Assembly (NCBI GenBank): GCA_029268515.1
Contig: JAQWNP010000016.1
Coordinates: forward strand, 124,001 to 188,000
Direction: 5' to 3'
Length of the DNA: 64,000 bases
Source: Phycisphaerales bacterium
GTDB lineage: Bacteria; Planctomycetota; Phycisphaerae; Phycisphaerales; SM1A02
Both the position numbers and the translations under genes were made by a program. Below, piece after piece: positions 44,758-50,394 of this stretch. The notes under the pieces were generated by a model. It searched no databases. It was not told the DNA's origin and saw only the letters and a program-made list of their open reading frames with translations. Numbering within the stretch: position 1 is the first letter of the stretch; every line of letters begins with the position of its first letter.

Positions 44758-45420
44758 TTATCTTGCTTGGAGCCTGTCACCCAAAATCCGTGGTTCGTAT
44801 TCATAAAAGAGCCGTGCCACCGCATCGCCGGATTCAATAGCGAGCTGCTCTTTAATCTGGGAACGCCCCGAAAGAGATCGAAAGAGCTCAATATCAACGG
44901 TGGGTAGTTCTACTAACAACTGATGAATCATCTGACCACTTTCAGGATCAGGAAAAACAATCCTGCTATCTTCGATATCTAAAACCTTAATATTAAGCAC
45001 TGCCGTCGGCTTACTAGAATACCCACCCGCAGTGAGATCAAATCGTATAACTTCGATATACACAAGCTGATCAGCACCAACTGCTTCAGCAATATCTTGA
45101 TTAGAAACCACATTGTCTGAGCGATCGTTTTGCTTCACAAATGCGATCGCATCGGCTGGCCGATACACGGTCTCAACCAGTTCCATATCAAGCAACATCT
45201 CACTGGTTTGATCAGCCAACGTACGAACTAATCGCGACGGACTGACACGCCCGAGACGATCGTCAACAAATACCACGGTCGGCTTATCTTCAATGATATG
45301 AACCGCTGCAATTTTTGGTTCAGGACCAATTGCATATGCGACCGGCGCTACAACATTACAGCCCATGGACACGGCGGCGAGCAATGGCAGTGCCACCCAA
45401 AAATAAACCGTGCCGCTCAT
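44758..45420 (-). CDS. Lipoprotein of unknown function, paralogue of the adjacent gene
   Basis: 220 residues with signal peptide and lipobox VSMGC near residue 20. The mature part contains a strand-helix unit VVFVDDRLGRVSPSRLVRTLADQTSEMLL and a block DIAEAVGADQLVYIEVIRFDL. Matching blocks in the next gene upstream are VAVLVDADYSILFEHPRLMEVVADHISARL and EVADDLGVNRLVHIDLYEFRL, so the two are tandem paralogues. No known family is claimed. The start overlaps the preceding gene by 4 bases. Confidence 0.65.
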   Translation of the reverse strand: MSGTVYFWVALPLLAAVSMGCNVVAPVAYAIGPEPKIAAVHIIEDKPTVVFVDDRLGRVSPSRLVRTLADQTSEMLLDMELVETVYRPADAIAFVKQNDRSDNVVSNQDIAEAVGADQLVYIEVIRFDLTAGGYSSKPTAVLNIKVLDIEDSRIVFPDPESGQMIHQLLVELPTVDIELFRSLSGRSQIKEQLAIESGDAVARLFYEYEPRILGDRLQAR

Positions 45421-46127
45421 TTTGATTGCCCCTGACTTGTCGTATCAGGCTTATATTTATCTGGATACTTCGGTTCAGTGTGGGTGTAAAACAACCAGGT
45501 TGATTCCTTTACGAAGCGTGACAACAAGCCAGTCTCAACGGCATTCTGAGAGGCACCGTCACGTGTCACGCCGCGCACGTCTGGAAACTCGGCCACCACA
45601 TTAAAAGTCTCTGCATATTGATCTGAATCATAACTTTCGCGTTCGGCCAAGCCGATTGTGGCCGCTGCCACACCCTCCCAAAGCCACTGATTTCCTGGCG
45701 GATTGAGGCGAAACTCGTAAAGGTCAATATGAACAAGACGATTGACCCCCAAATCATCGGCCACCTCACTCAAAGGCATCGCATTCCATTGTGGCGTCTG
45801 ATACTGCCACGTACGAACCATCTGTGGATTGAGCACCCGAATACCCTCAACCTCTTTCGCCAAGCGAGCTGAAATATGATCCGCAACAACCTCCATTAAG
45901 CGAGGGTGCTCGAAGAGAATTGAGTAGTCTGCATCAACGAGTACTGCAACCGTATGATTCTCAAGGCCGGAATACTCAGGATGCACCTCAATGAGTTTTT
46001 GATACTCATAGTTCTGCGCCATAGCACCAGCCAACTTAATGACACCACAACCACTGAGGCCAATGTTTGCAAAGCCAAGAAGGCAGATTCCAATACCTAC
46101 GTAAAGTCTCTGAATTGTCTTGCTCAT
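45417..46127 (-). CDS. Lipoprotein of unknown function, paralogue of the following gene
   Basis: 236 residues; hydrophobic signal ending in lipobox LSGC, then a mature domain with the same order of strands and helices as the gene behind it. A hydrophilic Lys/Asp/Thr-rich tail closes the protein. Such pairs may assemble together at the outer membrane, but nothing in the sequence states the function. The start overlaps the stop of the DUF2752 gene by 4 bases, and the stop overlaps the next start by 4 bases, so DUF2752 and both lipoproteins form one translationally coupled unit. Confidence 0.65.
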   Translation of the reverse strand: MSKTIQRLYVGIGICLLGFANIGLSGCGVIKLAGAMAQNYEYQKLIEVHPEYSGLENHTVAVLVDADYSILFEHPRLMEVVADHISARLAKEVEGIRVLNPQMVRTWQYQTPQWNAMPLSEVADDLGVNRLVHIDLYEFRLNPPGNQWLWEGVAAATIGLAERESYDSDQYAETFNVVAEFPDVRGVTRDGASQNAVETGLLSRFVKESTWLFYTHTEPKYPDKYKPDTTSQGQSK

Positions 46128-46663
46128 GATGAAGCCCCGGTCGTAACCACTAATATTTTATAGCCCCATGCAACGAGCACAACTGCGCTAATCGTCCATA
46201 GCCACCTCGCACGAAACGGCCCTGCCAAACGATTGGCCACACGAGACCCCGTAATAGCAACATATACGCCGAGTAATAGAATAGCCGCAGTCACAACTGC
46301 CAGGATTGCGCCCAAAGGCTGAGCCATAAATGCATGCCCCAGTTCTCCTTTCACCGCATGTGAAAATGAAGTGGTCATACCACAGGTTGGGCAGGGAATA
46401 CCAAAGCCAGACATCCAACTACATGCCGGCAGACCGAGTTGAGCATGCGTTCCATAGCCATCTGGATCAGGGCTCAATGAGACTGCAATGCCAAGTAGCG
46501 TTCCTGCCAATATTGCAAGAGTTAAGCCCCAAAGGCGCCGCGCTCCGACAGCATCCATTCGCTGAGCCTGCTCCACCACCAACTGCCCCCCAGGAGCTTC
46601 CGCGCACAGCTCGGCATTGCCGCTCTCGGTCAAGTTGGTTGAATTGGGTCTCGATTTCTCCAT
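46124..46663 (-). CDS. DUF2752 membrane protein
   Basis: 179 residues with a hydrophilic N-terminus (~45 residues) and three membrane helices. The conserved DUF2752 segment GFGIPCPTCGMTTSFSHAVKGE lies between helices one and two, with the C-P-x-C-G-x-T-x-S pattern. The family is widespread and its biochemical role is unknown. The long N-terminal polar stretch is unusual; a later start is possible, e.g. at the Met in AQRMDAVGARR. First gene of the minus-strand run, divergent from the M19 peptidase-like gene. Confidence 0.8.
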   Translation of the reverse strand: MEKSRPNSTNLTESGNAELCAEAPGGQLVVEQAQRMDAVGARRLWGLTLAILAGTLLGIAVSLSPDPDGYGTHAQLGLPACSWMSGFGIPCPTCGMTTSFSHAVKGELGHAFMAQPLGAILAVVTAAILLLGVYVAITGSRVANRLAGPFRARWLWTISAVVLVAWGYKILVVTTGASS

Positions 46664-46784
46664 GATTCGACTACCCTACCCCTTCCTTGCAGGTGTATCA
46701 AAGCCTGCAGCGCTTTCATCATGATCAGCCTGCGTGAAACCTCACTTAGGCCTCGTTAATACAAAACACTCGGAGGCTCTCTGT

Positions 46785-47762
46785 ATGTGGCTCGATGCTC
46801 ATCTTGATATGGCCTGGGCTGCCGTCCAGGGTCGTGATCTGACAACACCCTGCCCTGATCGTTCAGAAGCTGCGCTCAGCTTGCCTGATCTTGCAGAGGG
46901 TGATGTTCAGTATGCCTTTGCCACAATCTTCACTGATCCACCCAGCCCCCAAATGATTGCCACACATACTGATGAAGAAATACGAAACTGGTGTCATGAA
47001 GCTGGACTGGAACAGTTGGCCGTTTACGAAAATCTAGAAAGAGACGGACACATTCGCATTGTCCGATCGACCAGTGATCTAGACGTCAACTGTGACTGCC
47101 TAAGCATTGTATTGCTCATGGAAGGCGCTGACCCAATCCGTCGACCAGATGAAGTGAGCTGGTGGTTTGAACGCGGCCTGCGCGTGGTAGGACTCACATG
47201 GGCAATGGGAAGTCGCTATGCGGGAGGAAACGCTCAAAGTCATCCCCTGACGGATGAAGGCCGAGCACTCATCACTGCACTTGATGAATATAAAATTGTT
47301 CACGACCTTTCTCATCTCGCTGATCCAGCTGTAGACGAATTACTGAGTATCAGCCATGGACCGGTGATTGCCTCGCACTCGAATGCTCGGCATTTCATTC
47401 CTGGCAATGAGCGTCATATCCAGGATGCTCATATCAAAGAGATTAGCAATCGCAATGGCGTGATTGGGCTGAATTTATTCAGCCAGTTTCTAACGCCCAA
47501 CCGCCGTGCCCGTGTCGCAGATTGCATAGACCATATCTCACACATCTGTTCAGTCATGGGCCATCATCAGGGCTGTGGCTTGGGATCAGATCTTGATGGC
47601 GGCTTTGCACCCACTCAGATGCCGGAGGGTCTTGATCATCCATCTAAGTATGGTGCCTTGAGCCAAGCACTACGCCAAAGGGGCTGGTCTGCATCAGACA
47701 TTCGTGGATTTGAGCACGCCAACTGGCTCAATTTCCTTCGAACCGCGTTACCAAATGACTAA
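46785..47762 (+). CDS. M19 (renal dipeptidase-like) membrane dipeptidase family protein
   Basis: 325 residues from ATG 46785, which has GGAGG eight bases ahead; the frame opens at GTG 46734. The metal site begins with H-x-D in DAHLDMAW, followed by DLSHLADPA, VIASHSNARHF and GLGSDLDGGF, the ordered blocks of zinc dipeptidases of the M19 family. These split dipeptides, including D-amino-acid dipeptides, in some bacteria. No signal peptide is seen, so a cytoplasmic site is likely. Stands alone, convergent with the pseudo-MinD gene. Confidence 0.85.
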   Translation: MWLDAHLDMAWAAVQGRDLTTPCPDRSEAALSLPDLAEGDVQYAFATIFTDPPSPQMIATHTDEEIRNWCHEAGLEQLAVYENLERDGHIRIVRSTSDLDVNCDCLSIVLLMEGADPIRRPDEVSWWFERGLRVVGLTWAMGSRYAGGNAQSHPLTDEGRALITALDEYKIVHDLSHLADPAVDELLSISHGPVIASHSNARHFIPGNERHIQDAHIKEISNRNGVIGLNLFSQFLTPNRRARVADCIDHISHICSVMGHHQGCGLGSDLDGGFAPTQMPEGLDHPSKYGALSQALRQRGWSASDIRGFEHANWLNFLRTALPND

Positions 47763-47788: not shown

Positions 47789-49066
47789 CTACAAATCAAT
47801 ACAGCGAGGACGCTGGTCAGGATCTTCGGGCAGCACCAGATGTAGTTCAAAGCCACAGCGATGAAGATCATCAAGATCCCCGGCGCTATCTGCAAACAGA
47901 TGTTGCCTGATCTCGGCTTTGGCCCGCAGACCTTCGCCATGACAGGCTTCAGCGAGCAGCGGCAGGTGGTCACTCGCCCATGAAGTCACCATGACGAGTT
48001 TACGAAGTTGATCATGCCACGCGAGAATATTGAGCCGGCCCTCATTGTCAACTGCCAACTCAATTGTCTGATCATAAGGACAGCGTTGTCTCAAAGGCAA
48101 CAGATCTTTCATGAGTGAAGACCATTGACCTTGCTCAGTCGGCGCTGTGTCAACAACCACACTGCGCTGAGATGGCGATGTTGATTCCGATGTCACCAGC
48201 GCATCGAGGGCCGTTGCAGATCCAGCAGCAGCTGGCATCTCCAATTTGGGACGAGCTGTTTCTGTTGCCTGGGCGGAGGGGGCATTTTGATCAACTGGTG
48301 GCTGCTCCCAACGCACCGCTCGAGGAACATGAACAGCAGTCATGATATCGAGTACCGCATCGTTCAAACCGCCTTCACAATTCAAAGAACGGTGACTGTG
48401 TTTAAGCACATCAATACGTGGCAACGTAAGACCTAAGTGTAGCTTGACCCCAAGATGGGCTTCTGTTGTCGCTCTTAAGCGATCCATCATTTGTTCAGCC
48501 TGGTGATCATCACAACCAACGATTGCCATATGTACCGTTGGTGATGGCATTTCAGCTTCCTGGGCTGCTAAGGCCAATACTTTAATGCGCCGATAAGCCG
48601 CAACCAATGCCGCTTGATCCGCACTTGTCAAGAGTGTGATTTGATCAGGTTGACTCCGCAACAAATCGATCGGATGCATTTGTTCATCAACCAGAATAAT
48701 CCAGCAAGCAATCTCGGGCGCCAGATCAACGACCACTCGTTCAAGGTCCTGCTCGGAAGCAAGACCGTCAAGCTGCCCCAAAGGAACCTGCGCACATTGA
48801 ATTCGCACACCACTGACATCTTCTTGAACCAGGCAGGTTGGACCTTGATCAGATGCAATACGATCTAAATAGGGTGGCAGCCACAACCCCCCACGTACCG
48901 GCAAGTGACCGGCAAGTAACAAATGCCGTTGGGCTCGCTGCGGCATATCACACCCCGCACCACCGCCGCCTCGTGGCTCTGATTGATTGCCCGTTGACGA
49001 AGCTGCATCTGCTGGTGTGAGGAAGAGCTCAGCGAGTTCATCAATGGGATCGATGTGTTGGGACAT
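47789..49066 (-). CDS. Degenerate MinD/ParA-like protein, partner of the ParA-CBM48 protein
   Basis: 425 residues. After a polar, Gly-rich N-terminus (~1-45), residues ~45-235 follow the MinD/FleN order of strands: HLLLAGHLPVRGGLWLPPYL where Walker A should be, then DQITLLTSADQAALVAAYRRIKVLAL and HMAIVGCDDHQAEQMMDRL, LGLTLPRIDVLKHSHRSL. The Walker A lysines are missing, so it cannot bind ATP in the normal way. A Pro/Ala-rich linker follows, and the last ~110 residues form an unassigned domain. It starts 11 bases after the ParA-fusion gene and is almost surely cotranscribed; a heterodimer with it is inference. Confidence 0.55.
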   Translation of the reverse strand: MSQHIDPIDELAELFLTPADAASSTGNQSEPRGGGGAGCDMPQRAQRHLLLAGHLPVRGGLWLPPYLDRIASDQGPTCLVQEDVSGVRIQCAQVPLGQLDGLASEQDLERVVVDLAPEIACWIILVDEQMHPIDLLRSQPDQITLLTSADQAALVAAYRRIKVLALAAQEAEMPSPTVHMAIVGCDDHQAEQMMDRLRATTEAHLGVKLHLGLTLPRIDVLKHSHRSLNCEGGLNDAVLDIMTAVHVPRAVRWEQPPVDQNAPSAQATETARPKLEMPAAAGSATALDALVTSESTSPSQRSVVVDTAPTEQGQWSSLMKDLLPLRQRCPYDQTIELAVDNEGRLNILAWHDQLRKLVMVTSWASDHLPLLAEACHGEGLRAKAEIRQHLFADSAGDLDDLHRCGFELHLVLPEDPDQRPRCIDL

Positions 49067-49077
49067 GATTAGTCGCC

Positions 49078-50394
49078 TCAGCCGACGATCAGCACGTTAC
49101 AAGGGCCGATTGCCGGGTCGTTCTGTCGTTGATCGTTGTATGAATCGAGCCCCGCCTGCCCGTCGACCAGAATCTGATAGCGATACCGCCCCTCTGGAAG
49201 AGGTACTGTTATCTCAAGCATTCCAGTTTGCTCGCTACGTTTCAATCTGATTGGTGCCCAAGCATTAAAGTCTCCAGCCACAGAGACAACTTGCGCCCCC
49301 GAATCGGGCTGCACAAAGCGGACACCGCCTGAAGTTACTTCAGCACCCAAGAAGCGATTCACTTCAATCTCAGGGGGATCCAGAGGCGCCTTCTCCAGCA
49401 TCGCATCAGGCACGGGCTCATTGCCGATCTGCTCATCGGATGGCTGATCAGTCACTGACTGCCCCAAAAACTCTGAGGACTCTGCTTCACTTTTTACTTT
49501 GCTTTCAGCTCGATTGATTCTCGCCACTAACTCGGCAGCACGATGTCCCCGATCAGAGATCGGTGGCGCAACACGACTCTCGGTCATCGGCACACTGAAT
49601 TGCTCTTGTGGTGCCGCCAAAATACGCAAACGCTCTAACTCATCAGCAAGATCTTCAAACTCTTGATGTGCCATTGACTGCGGGGCATATTCGAGGATGG
49701 GCTGGCCCATACTCACCGCCTCTCGCAGCTCTTCATGACGACGAATGACGGTCCGCAATAACTCACCAGGGAAGTCGCGGCGTAGCGACTCAAGAATTGT
49801 TGTTGCAAGTTTGGATTCAGGGTCATACATCGTGGCAAGAAGATGACACTGCAGCGGACGACCCATTCGACTAATTAAGTTCTGAACAGTGCGAAACTGT
49901 TTATGCGCACCGCGCATTGCAAAGAATCCTGACTCGACCGGAATCAATGCGTCATCGGCCGCCCGAAGTGCATTGAATGTTAGTAATCCAATCGCTGGCG
50001 AACAGTCAATGAGGCAAATGTCATAATCCGGTTTGATCAACTTCAACAGACTCTCAAGCCTGCGATCGCGATCGGCTCGCTGGTGCAATCCGCCACCTGG
50101 AGCCTCCACAGCGGCTAGTCGCATCGTACTGGGAAGCAGGTGAAAGCTTCTTCCGACCTCCCAAACCACCGACTTTAAATTAAGACCCTGCTCATGCTCA
50201 GCTAAGAGTGCCTCTGAAACACTGAATTCGATATCGTCTTCGGGAACACCAAGACCTGCAGCACAGTGTGACTGGGGATCAAGATCAACCAACAGGGTTC
50301 GCTTGCCGCGCGCTGCAAAGACTGCAGCCAGGTTGATTGCTGTGGTCGTCTTCCCGGAGCCACCCTTTTGATTGACTATTGCAAAAACCCGCAA
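49078..50394 (-). CDS. ParA-family ATPase fused to a glycogen-binding (CBM48/AMPK-beta-like) domain
   Basis: 438 residues. Residues 1-~255 form a complete ParA/Soj ATPase: deviant Walker A KGGSGKTTTAIN (start of protein), LVDLDPQSHCAAGLG, Walker B ICLIDCSPAIGLLT and VESGFFAMRG. A polar linker (~270-350) follows. Residues ~352-438 match the early-set carbohydrate-binding module of AMPK-beta and branching enzymes: VSVAGDFNAW (374-379 is GDFNAW), then ITVPLPEGRYRYQILVDG and the closing CNVLIV. The second aromatic of the sugar platform, usually W after VDG, reads A-G-L here. No parB or parS is nearby. A surface- or glycan-positioning ATPase is suggested but unproven. Confidence 0.85.
   Translation of the reverse strand: MRVFAIVNQKGGSGKTTTAINLAAVFAARGKRTLLVDLDPQSHCAAGLGVPEDDIEFSVSEALLAEHEQGLNLKSVVWEVGRSFHLLPSTMRLAAVEAPGGGLHQRADRDRRLESLLKLIKPDYDICLIDCSPAIGLLTFNALRAADDALIPVESGFFAMRGAHKQFRTVQNLISRMGRPLQCHLLATMYDPESKLATTILESLRRDFPGELLRTVIRRHEELREAVSMGQPILEYAPQSMAHQEFEDLADELERLRILAAPQEQFSVPMTESRVAPPISDRGHRAAELVARINRAESKVKSEAESSEFLGQSVTDQPSDEQIGNEPVPDAMLEKAPLDPPEIEVNRFLGAEVTSGGVRFVQPDSGAQVVSVAGDFNAWAPIRLKRSEQTGMLEITVPLPEGRYRYQILVDGQAGLDSYNDQRQNDPAIGPCNVLIVG

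Follow-up and report, generated by a model that had tools for sequence, protein, structure and literature searches.

A FlhG-type protein with a replaced P-loop, encoded beside a ParA-CBM48 ATPase in a Planctomycetota class, as a candidate partner of that ATPase

The TadZ/CpaE proteins are encoded in the Tad pilus locus and carry a receiver-like domain ahead of the ATPase domain. They share the ParA/MinD fold but have lost lysines, and TadZ of Eubacterium rectale is reported, in passages of PMC10482377, to retain ATPase activity without both of these residues. FlhG stimulates FlhF through an N-terminal helix bearing the motif DQAxxLR, according to excerpts of PMC12826062. The partner proteins of ParA/MinD ATPases, among them ParB, MinE, and McdB, are very diverse, and excerpts of PMC10241942 describe a positively charged, disordered N-terminal segment that contacts the ATP-bound dimer and links it to cargo. 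For many orphan ParA/MinD ATPases the partners are too diverse to be found by sequence, and cell organisation in the Planctomycetota class treated here is poorly understood.

The window (the whole stretch of DNA that was analysed, 64,000 nucleotides from a Phycisphaerales bacterium) carries a ParA-CBM48 gene and, directly downstream, a gene whose product we call pseudo-FlhG. The features of the locus are as follows.

47789..49066, minus strand: pseudo-FlhG/MinD gene, 425 aa; a single open reading frame fills the interval exactly.
49067..49077, minus strand: intergenic gap of 11 bases, with pseudo-FlhG downstream of the ParA stop.
49078..50394, minus strand: ParA-CBM48 gene, ATPase intact, 438 aa, TTG start, KGGSGKTT; matches to AAA_31 (7.8e-43), AMPK1_CBM (2.7e-8), and CBM_48 (6.4e-5).
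49081..49350, minus strand: CBM48/AMPK1-CBM-like tail of ParA (Pfam match), second Trp replaced by Ala.
49016..49051, minus strand: N-terminal motif DPIDELAELFLT of pseudo-FlhG, residues 6-17, a predicted helix and proposed ParA-contact peptide.
48392..48937, minus strand: FlhG/FleN-like domain, residues 44-225, from structure and profile matches.
48881..48910, minus strand: replaced P-loop GHLPVRGGLW, residues 53-62, aligned to GKGGVGKSNI.
48125..48331, minus strand: Pro/Ala-rich linker, residues 246-314, of low confidence (pLDDT <50 at 264-267 and 275-309).
47792..48124, minus strand: PD-(D/E)XK-like C-terminal domain, residues 315-425, with no recognisable catalytic pair.

An earlier sequence-only reading of this DNA had placed the two genes 11 bases apart, and their reading frames (49078-50394 and 47789-49066, both on the minus strand) bear this out. 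Judged by its AAA_31 match (7.8e-43), the ATPase part of the window ParA is ordinary in type. The 425 aa of pseudo-FlhG have no Pfam or NCBIfam family match, and a Pfam search with the protein and 34 aligned relatives returned nothing beyond scattered matches of single members (best E 0.043). The gene is present as one copy in its own genome and, compared with the copy of a congener, is under purifying selection (dN/dS of about 0.14, with dS near saturation). A TatB match of the linker (PDB profile, E 0.0047) was judged to reflect composition or chance.

The AlphaFold2 model of pseudo-FlhG, built from 35 sequences, has a mean pLDDT of 81.9, with 268 residues at 90 or above and the folded parts mostly above 90. 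The sequence-only reading had assigned the protein the MinD strand order and had set a fold comparison with MinD/FleN as the check; the model follows that order and has a ParA-like fold, so the refuting outcome, a prediction with no such fold, did not appear. Its best solved matches are FlhG 4rz3 (VIA Z 11.2, 162 aligned, 3.8 A) and, second, FleN 5jvf (VIA Z 10.4, 162 aligned, 4.5 A), above other P-loop families (Z 8.9 and lower), and Foldseek gave a best E of 1.3e-5. PDB profile matches are weak (FleN E 0.04, FlhG E 0.11). When the class-level alignment A5, which contains some sequences later scored with it, was compared by hhalign with five intact FlhG/MinD-type ATPases of the same class, one of which adjoins FlhF in the window's own genome, the result was 98.1% (E 1e-13, residues 42-221), whereas the order-level alignment A1 reached 0.8% against the profile of the neighbouring ParA. 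Given that the kinship of ParA and FlhG is itself detected at 99.0% by profile comparison, the method is sensitive enough for the 0.8% to count as a null, and pseudo-FlhG is thus to be taken as a FlhG-type relative and not as a copy of its ParA neighbour. Its earlier description as a dead paralogue of ParA-CBM48 was accordingly abandoned, and an origin by tandem duplication of the ParA gene is unsupported at 0.8% to the ParA profile.

With FlhG/FleN the protein shares the fold, the strand order, a DAYxLIKxL-type helix, the loop register, and a short N-terminal helix ahead of the domain; unlike them, it has a replaced P-loop, LAxLFL in the place of DQAxxLR, an added nuclease-fold tail, and a ParA, not FlhF, as its neighbour. 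The replacement of the P-loop by GHLPVRGGLWLPP, which the sequence-only reading had pointed out, is present (48881-48910 encodes GHLPVRGGLW), and a Walker A or KGGxGK[ST] pattern occurs in 0 of 63 distinct relatives. The hhalign register sets GHLPVRGG exactly on GKGGVGKS, so that H or N stands in place of the signature lysine, L and P in place of the two glycines, and mostly A or G in place of the catalytic lysine. The former P-loop site instead keeps a new motif, G[H/N]LP...W: of the 35 rows in the order-level alignment, 32 have G53, 34 have L55, 34 have P56, all 35 have W62, and 33 have H or N at position 54. On the evidence of these alignments the replacement is neither chance nor local decay, and we read the conserved motif together with the dN/dS as a sign that the site is selected for a new role rather than decaying.

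Pairing with ParA was followed through an order-level set of 41 genomes (the window's own and others of the genus, family, and order). The pseudo-FlhG gene is present in 39 of them, a single-sequence search having found it in 36 and a profile in 38, with G023 contributing a short, divergent form that starts on the ParA stop. Its position directly downstream of ParA was verified in 37 of the 41; in G005 and G015 the two genes lie at the ends of different contigs, where adjacency is not checkable. The absence of the gene beside ParA in related genomes, named beforehand as a refutation, did not appear. G029 and G036 have ParA and lack pseudo-FlhG, and their ParAs have long branches in the tree, as judged by eye. 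Elsewhere in the class, 24 of 24 loci fetched from families f7, f9, f10, f11, f12, f13, and f16 (L090-L109, L111, L112, L114, and L115), which were picked for having a match, show a relative immediately downstream of ParA. The start of pseudo-FlhG often overlaps the ParA stop by one base (gap -1).

The pair is not obligate, since G029 and G036 are without the partner, family f20 has ParA-CBM48 with no pseudo-FlhG neighbour at the four loci read (4/4), and G266 has a relative (L146:7010-9001) but no ParA in the stretch that was read. The G266 relative is long, with an open frame of 941 aa in L124 and no ParA in the upstream stretch. In 294 genomes sampled across the phylum, ParA matches better than 1e-100 are confined to 21 genomes, all of them from the class, and a profile finds the partner in 14 of these; among the matches read there were no relatives of the pair outside the class. 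Many of the class and phylum profile matches are FlhG-type ATPases that cover only model positions of about 98-250; part of these were read, with no listed ORF in L148 and L150-L153, and those read had intact P-loops and were left out of the count of relatives. Among the titles listed by searches of open-access PMC, none described a pair of this kind.

The co-occurrence with the fusion gene, which the sequence-only reading had set as a check, holds for the ParA ATPase (39 of 41 genomes) and not for its CBM48 part. A quick FastTree was built on 70 ParA domains, for many of which a partner match was the ground of choice, and ParAs without G.GK[ST]T were dropped beforehand. In this tree 13 domains lack CBM48 (6 parsimony changes) and 6 lack the partner (3 changes); since the partner is retained in 12 of the 13 genomes with a CBM48-less ParA, it goes with the ATPase and not with CBM48.

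Ahead of the FlhG-like domain, residues 7-15 form a helix in the AlphaFold2 model, with a pLDDT of about 55 there. A LAxLFL-type motif recurs at the N-terminus across the class (51 of 63 relatives by a loose pattern and, by eye, several of the remaining 12), and the DQAxxLR enhancer helix of FlhG was not found in its place. The net charge of the N-terminus is mostly negative in the order (-5 in the window protein), whereas it is positive in more remote families, f11 among them.

The C-terminal ~110 residues, which the sequence-only reading had left as of unknown type, reach a pLDDT of 96.2 when folded alone from 59 sequences and model as a PD-(D/E)XK-like fold, with Z at most 6.9. The best structural matches are EndoMS 5gke (Z 6.9, 3.1 A over 88 residues), the Pyrococcus repair endonuclease 2vld (6.8), PaqCI (6.1), and XisH (5.5), the top structural rows being, as we take them, mostly PD-(D/E)XK-fold proteins; Foldseek matches are modest (best E 2e-3). 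The tail thus resembles the C-terminal PD-(D/E)XK domain of EndoMS/NucS over 88 residues but, unlike that domain, has no (D/E)xK pair at the hairpin, in a catalytic register that we assumed from NucS. In this assumed register 28 of 59 rows have E at the position of the first acid, 34 of 59 have A at that of the second, and the lysine position is mixed, with no conserved lysine in the 59 rows. Since no (D/E)xK pair is recognisable, the tail is probably non-catalytic, and we read it as a nuclease fold that likely serves as a binding module. Other residues are kept (domain numbering), namely D26 in 48 of 59, G29 in 46, H32 in 43, and W49 in 56. A match of the tail to the chaperone SpcU (PDB profile, E 0.016) was put down to composition or chance.

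We give a probability of roughly 55% to the reading that pseudo-FlhG is the cognate partner or adaptor of the neighbouring ParA, a FlhG-type protein whose P-loop has been lost and whose nuclease-fold tail lacks the usual catalytic pair. That relatives across the class mostly keep the gene beside that ATPase argues that it is probably ParA's partner protein. A FlhG/FleN-type ancestor would have lost its ATP-binding loop long ago and would have been retained as the partner of the ParA-CBM48 encoded upstream. The LAxLFL N-terminal helix, or the FlhG-like face, may touch the ATP-bound ParA dimer, and this contact could control the release or turnover of ParA in the way that ParB, McdB, and the enhancer helix of FlhG act on their NTPases, while the C-terminal domain may bind cargo or DNA. 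Like the ParB, MinE, and McdB partners treated in excerpts of PMC10241942, pseudo-FlhG neighbours a ParA ATPase and has a low-confidence N-terminus with a conserved motif; unlike them, it is itself a ParA/MinD-superfamily fold. Its acidic N-terminus in the order counts against the partner reading, since the N-termini of partners are positively charged in the same excerpts (PMC10241942). If the partner reading is right, an ATPase of the same superfamily was apparently turned into a partner and the pair kept over much of a Planctomycetota class. A family without a Pfam model would thereby gain a testable role, with G[H/N]LP...W and LAxLFL as ready targets for mutation. It seems unlikely that the arrangement amounts to a class-wide system in which an active ParA and a retired FlhG-type regulatory subunit form a mixed sandwich and a retired nuclease domain serves as the hook for cargo or DNA.

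Also doubtful, though conceivable, is the asymmetric heterodimer suggested by the sequence-only reading, in which the dead FlhG-like domain would replace one ParA monomer in the ATP sandwich to give a one-site motor. ParA and pseudo-FlhG are both ParA/MinD-superfamily folds and are encoded together, and the loop region, which in the sandwich would lie against the partner, is highly conserved though no longer a P-loop. However, they fall on separate branches (0.8% for A1 against ParA, 98.1% for A5 against FlhG), the P-loop of ParA is complete, ParA lives alone in f20, and excerpts of PMC10241942 describe ParA/MinD ATPases as restricted to homodimers.

It is improbable that the two are conserved operon neighbours that never meet and are co-transcribed for some other reason. 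Synteny alone is weak evidence, since a wider block (aroB, the M19 peptidase, DUF2752, and two lipoproteins) keeps its gene order too, yet the ParA pair extends to further families of the class in which the adjoining ORFs differ in size and strand.

Among the structural matches of pseudo-FlhG is 3fkq (Z 7.3), which is titled an NtrC-like two-domain protein and which we take to be the structure of E. rectale TadZ. A TadZ-like protein that works alone and still binds or splits ATP at a rearranged site has in this enzyme a precedent without both lysines, and both share a ParA/MinD fold with lost lysines (passages of PMC10482377); because of that precedent, we infer rather than observe that the pseudo-FlhG ATPase is dead. 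We nevertheless hold this alternative to be quite improbable. In pseudo-FlhG the loop glycines are gone besides the lysines, no conserved basic residue was found at 53-62 (R58 in 11 of 35 rows), and the Walker B strand columns of the order-level alignment hold no conserved acid. No receiver-like domain precedes the ATPase-like domain, residues 1-43 being short and of low confidence, and no Tad locus genes occur among the scanned neighbours (aroB, M19 peptidase, DUF2752, and others).

A flagellar regulator, that is, a decayed second FlhG that acts on FlhF or FleQ-like factors and stays beside ParA by old synteny, would agree with FlhG/FleN as the closest fold and profile and with FlhF matches over the cut-off in 33 of 41 genomes. 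We consider it very improbable: the window's own genome encodes, beside FlhF, a distinct FlhG-like ATPase whose P-loop is intact (C16:26018, C16:27177), the DQAxxLR enhancer helix has given way to another motif, and dependence on a flagellum is disfavoured by G002, G006, and G018, which retain pseudo-FlhG with only FtsY-level matches to the FlhF model and thus no clear FlhF. PilT, present in 41 of 41 genomes, is uninformative.

The positioning of glycogen granules, with CBM48 binding glycogen and the partner regulating the ParA cycle, is scarcely credible despite the CBM48/AMPK1-CBM matches (PF16561 in 29 of 38 ParA rows), since searches of the 41 genomes found GlgA in 2 and GlgB over the cut-off in 5, with neither in the window's own genome, the window copy has lost the second Trp, and GlgB-model matches at E 1e-30 or better, most of them below the cut-off, occur in 7 of 7 genomes with CBM48 lost and the partner kept and in 13 of the 33 not scored CBM48-less (among which G001, G005, and G015 were unscored for CBM48), the opposite of what glycogen tethering predicts.

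Several minor observations concern the locus and its relatives. The tail of the window ParA reads DGQA instead of DGxW, having lost a second conserved Trp that most relatives keep, by tryptophan counts that are approximate (loose patterns) and in which three first-Trp misses are pattern failures. G002, G006, G018, and G036, the four genomes whose FlhF matches do not rise above FtsY level, are all among the eight relatives scored CBM48-less, an overlap that may represent one or two events since three of the four are related. In family f55, which belongs elsewhere in the phylum, ParA is directly adjoined by an FlhG/MinD-like ATPase that is intact (L154:2028-3853, L155:2172-3987), which is possibly a picture of the state before loop loss. 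In a congener (L002:4642-6046) ParA reads in two overlapping frames, the cause being either a real frameshift or a fault of the assembly. Positions 44758-47762 of the window hold a block, made up of two lipoprotein-like ORFs and the genes of a DUF2752 protein and an M19 peptidase, that is conserved with the pair at about 17 to 21 loci. An ORF of ~550 residues that by eye resembles a membrane glycosyltransferase of the ArnT/PMT kind often lies upstream of ParA, as in L022, L027, L030, L032, L041, L043, L046, L047, L050, and others.
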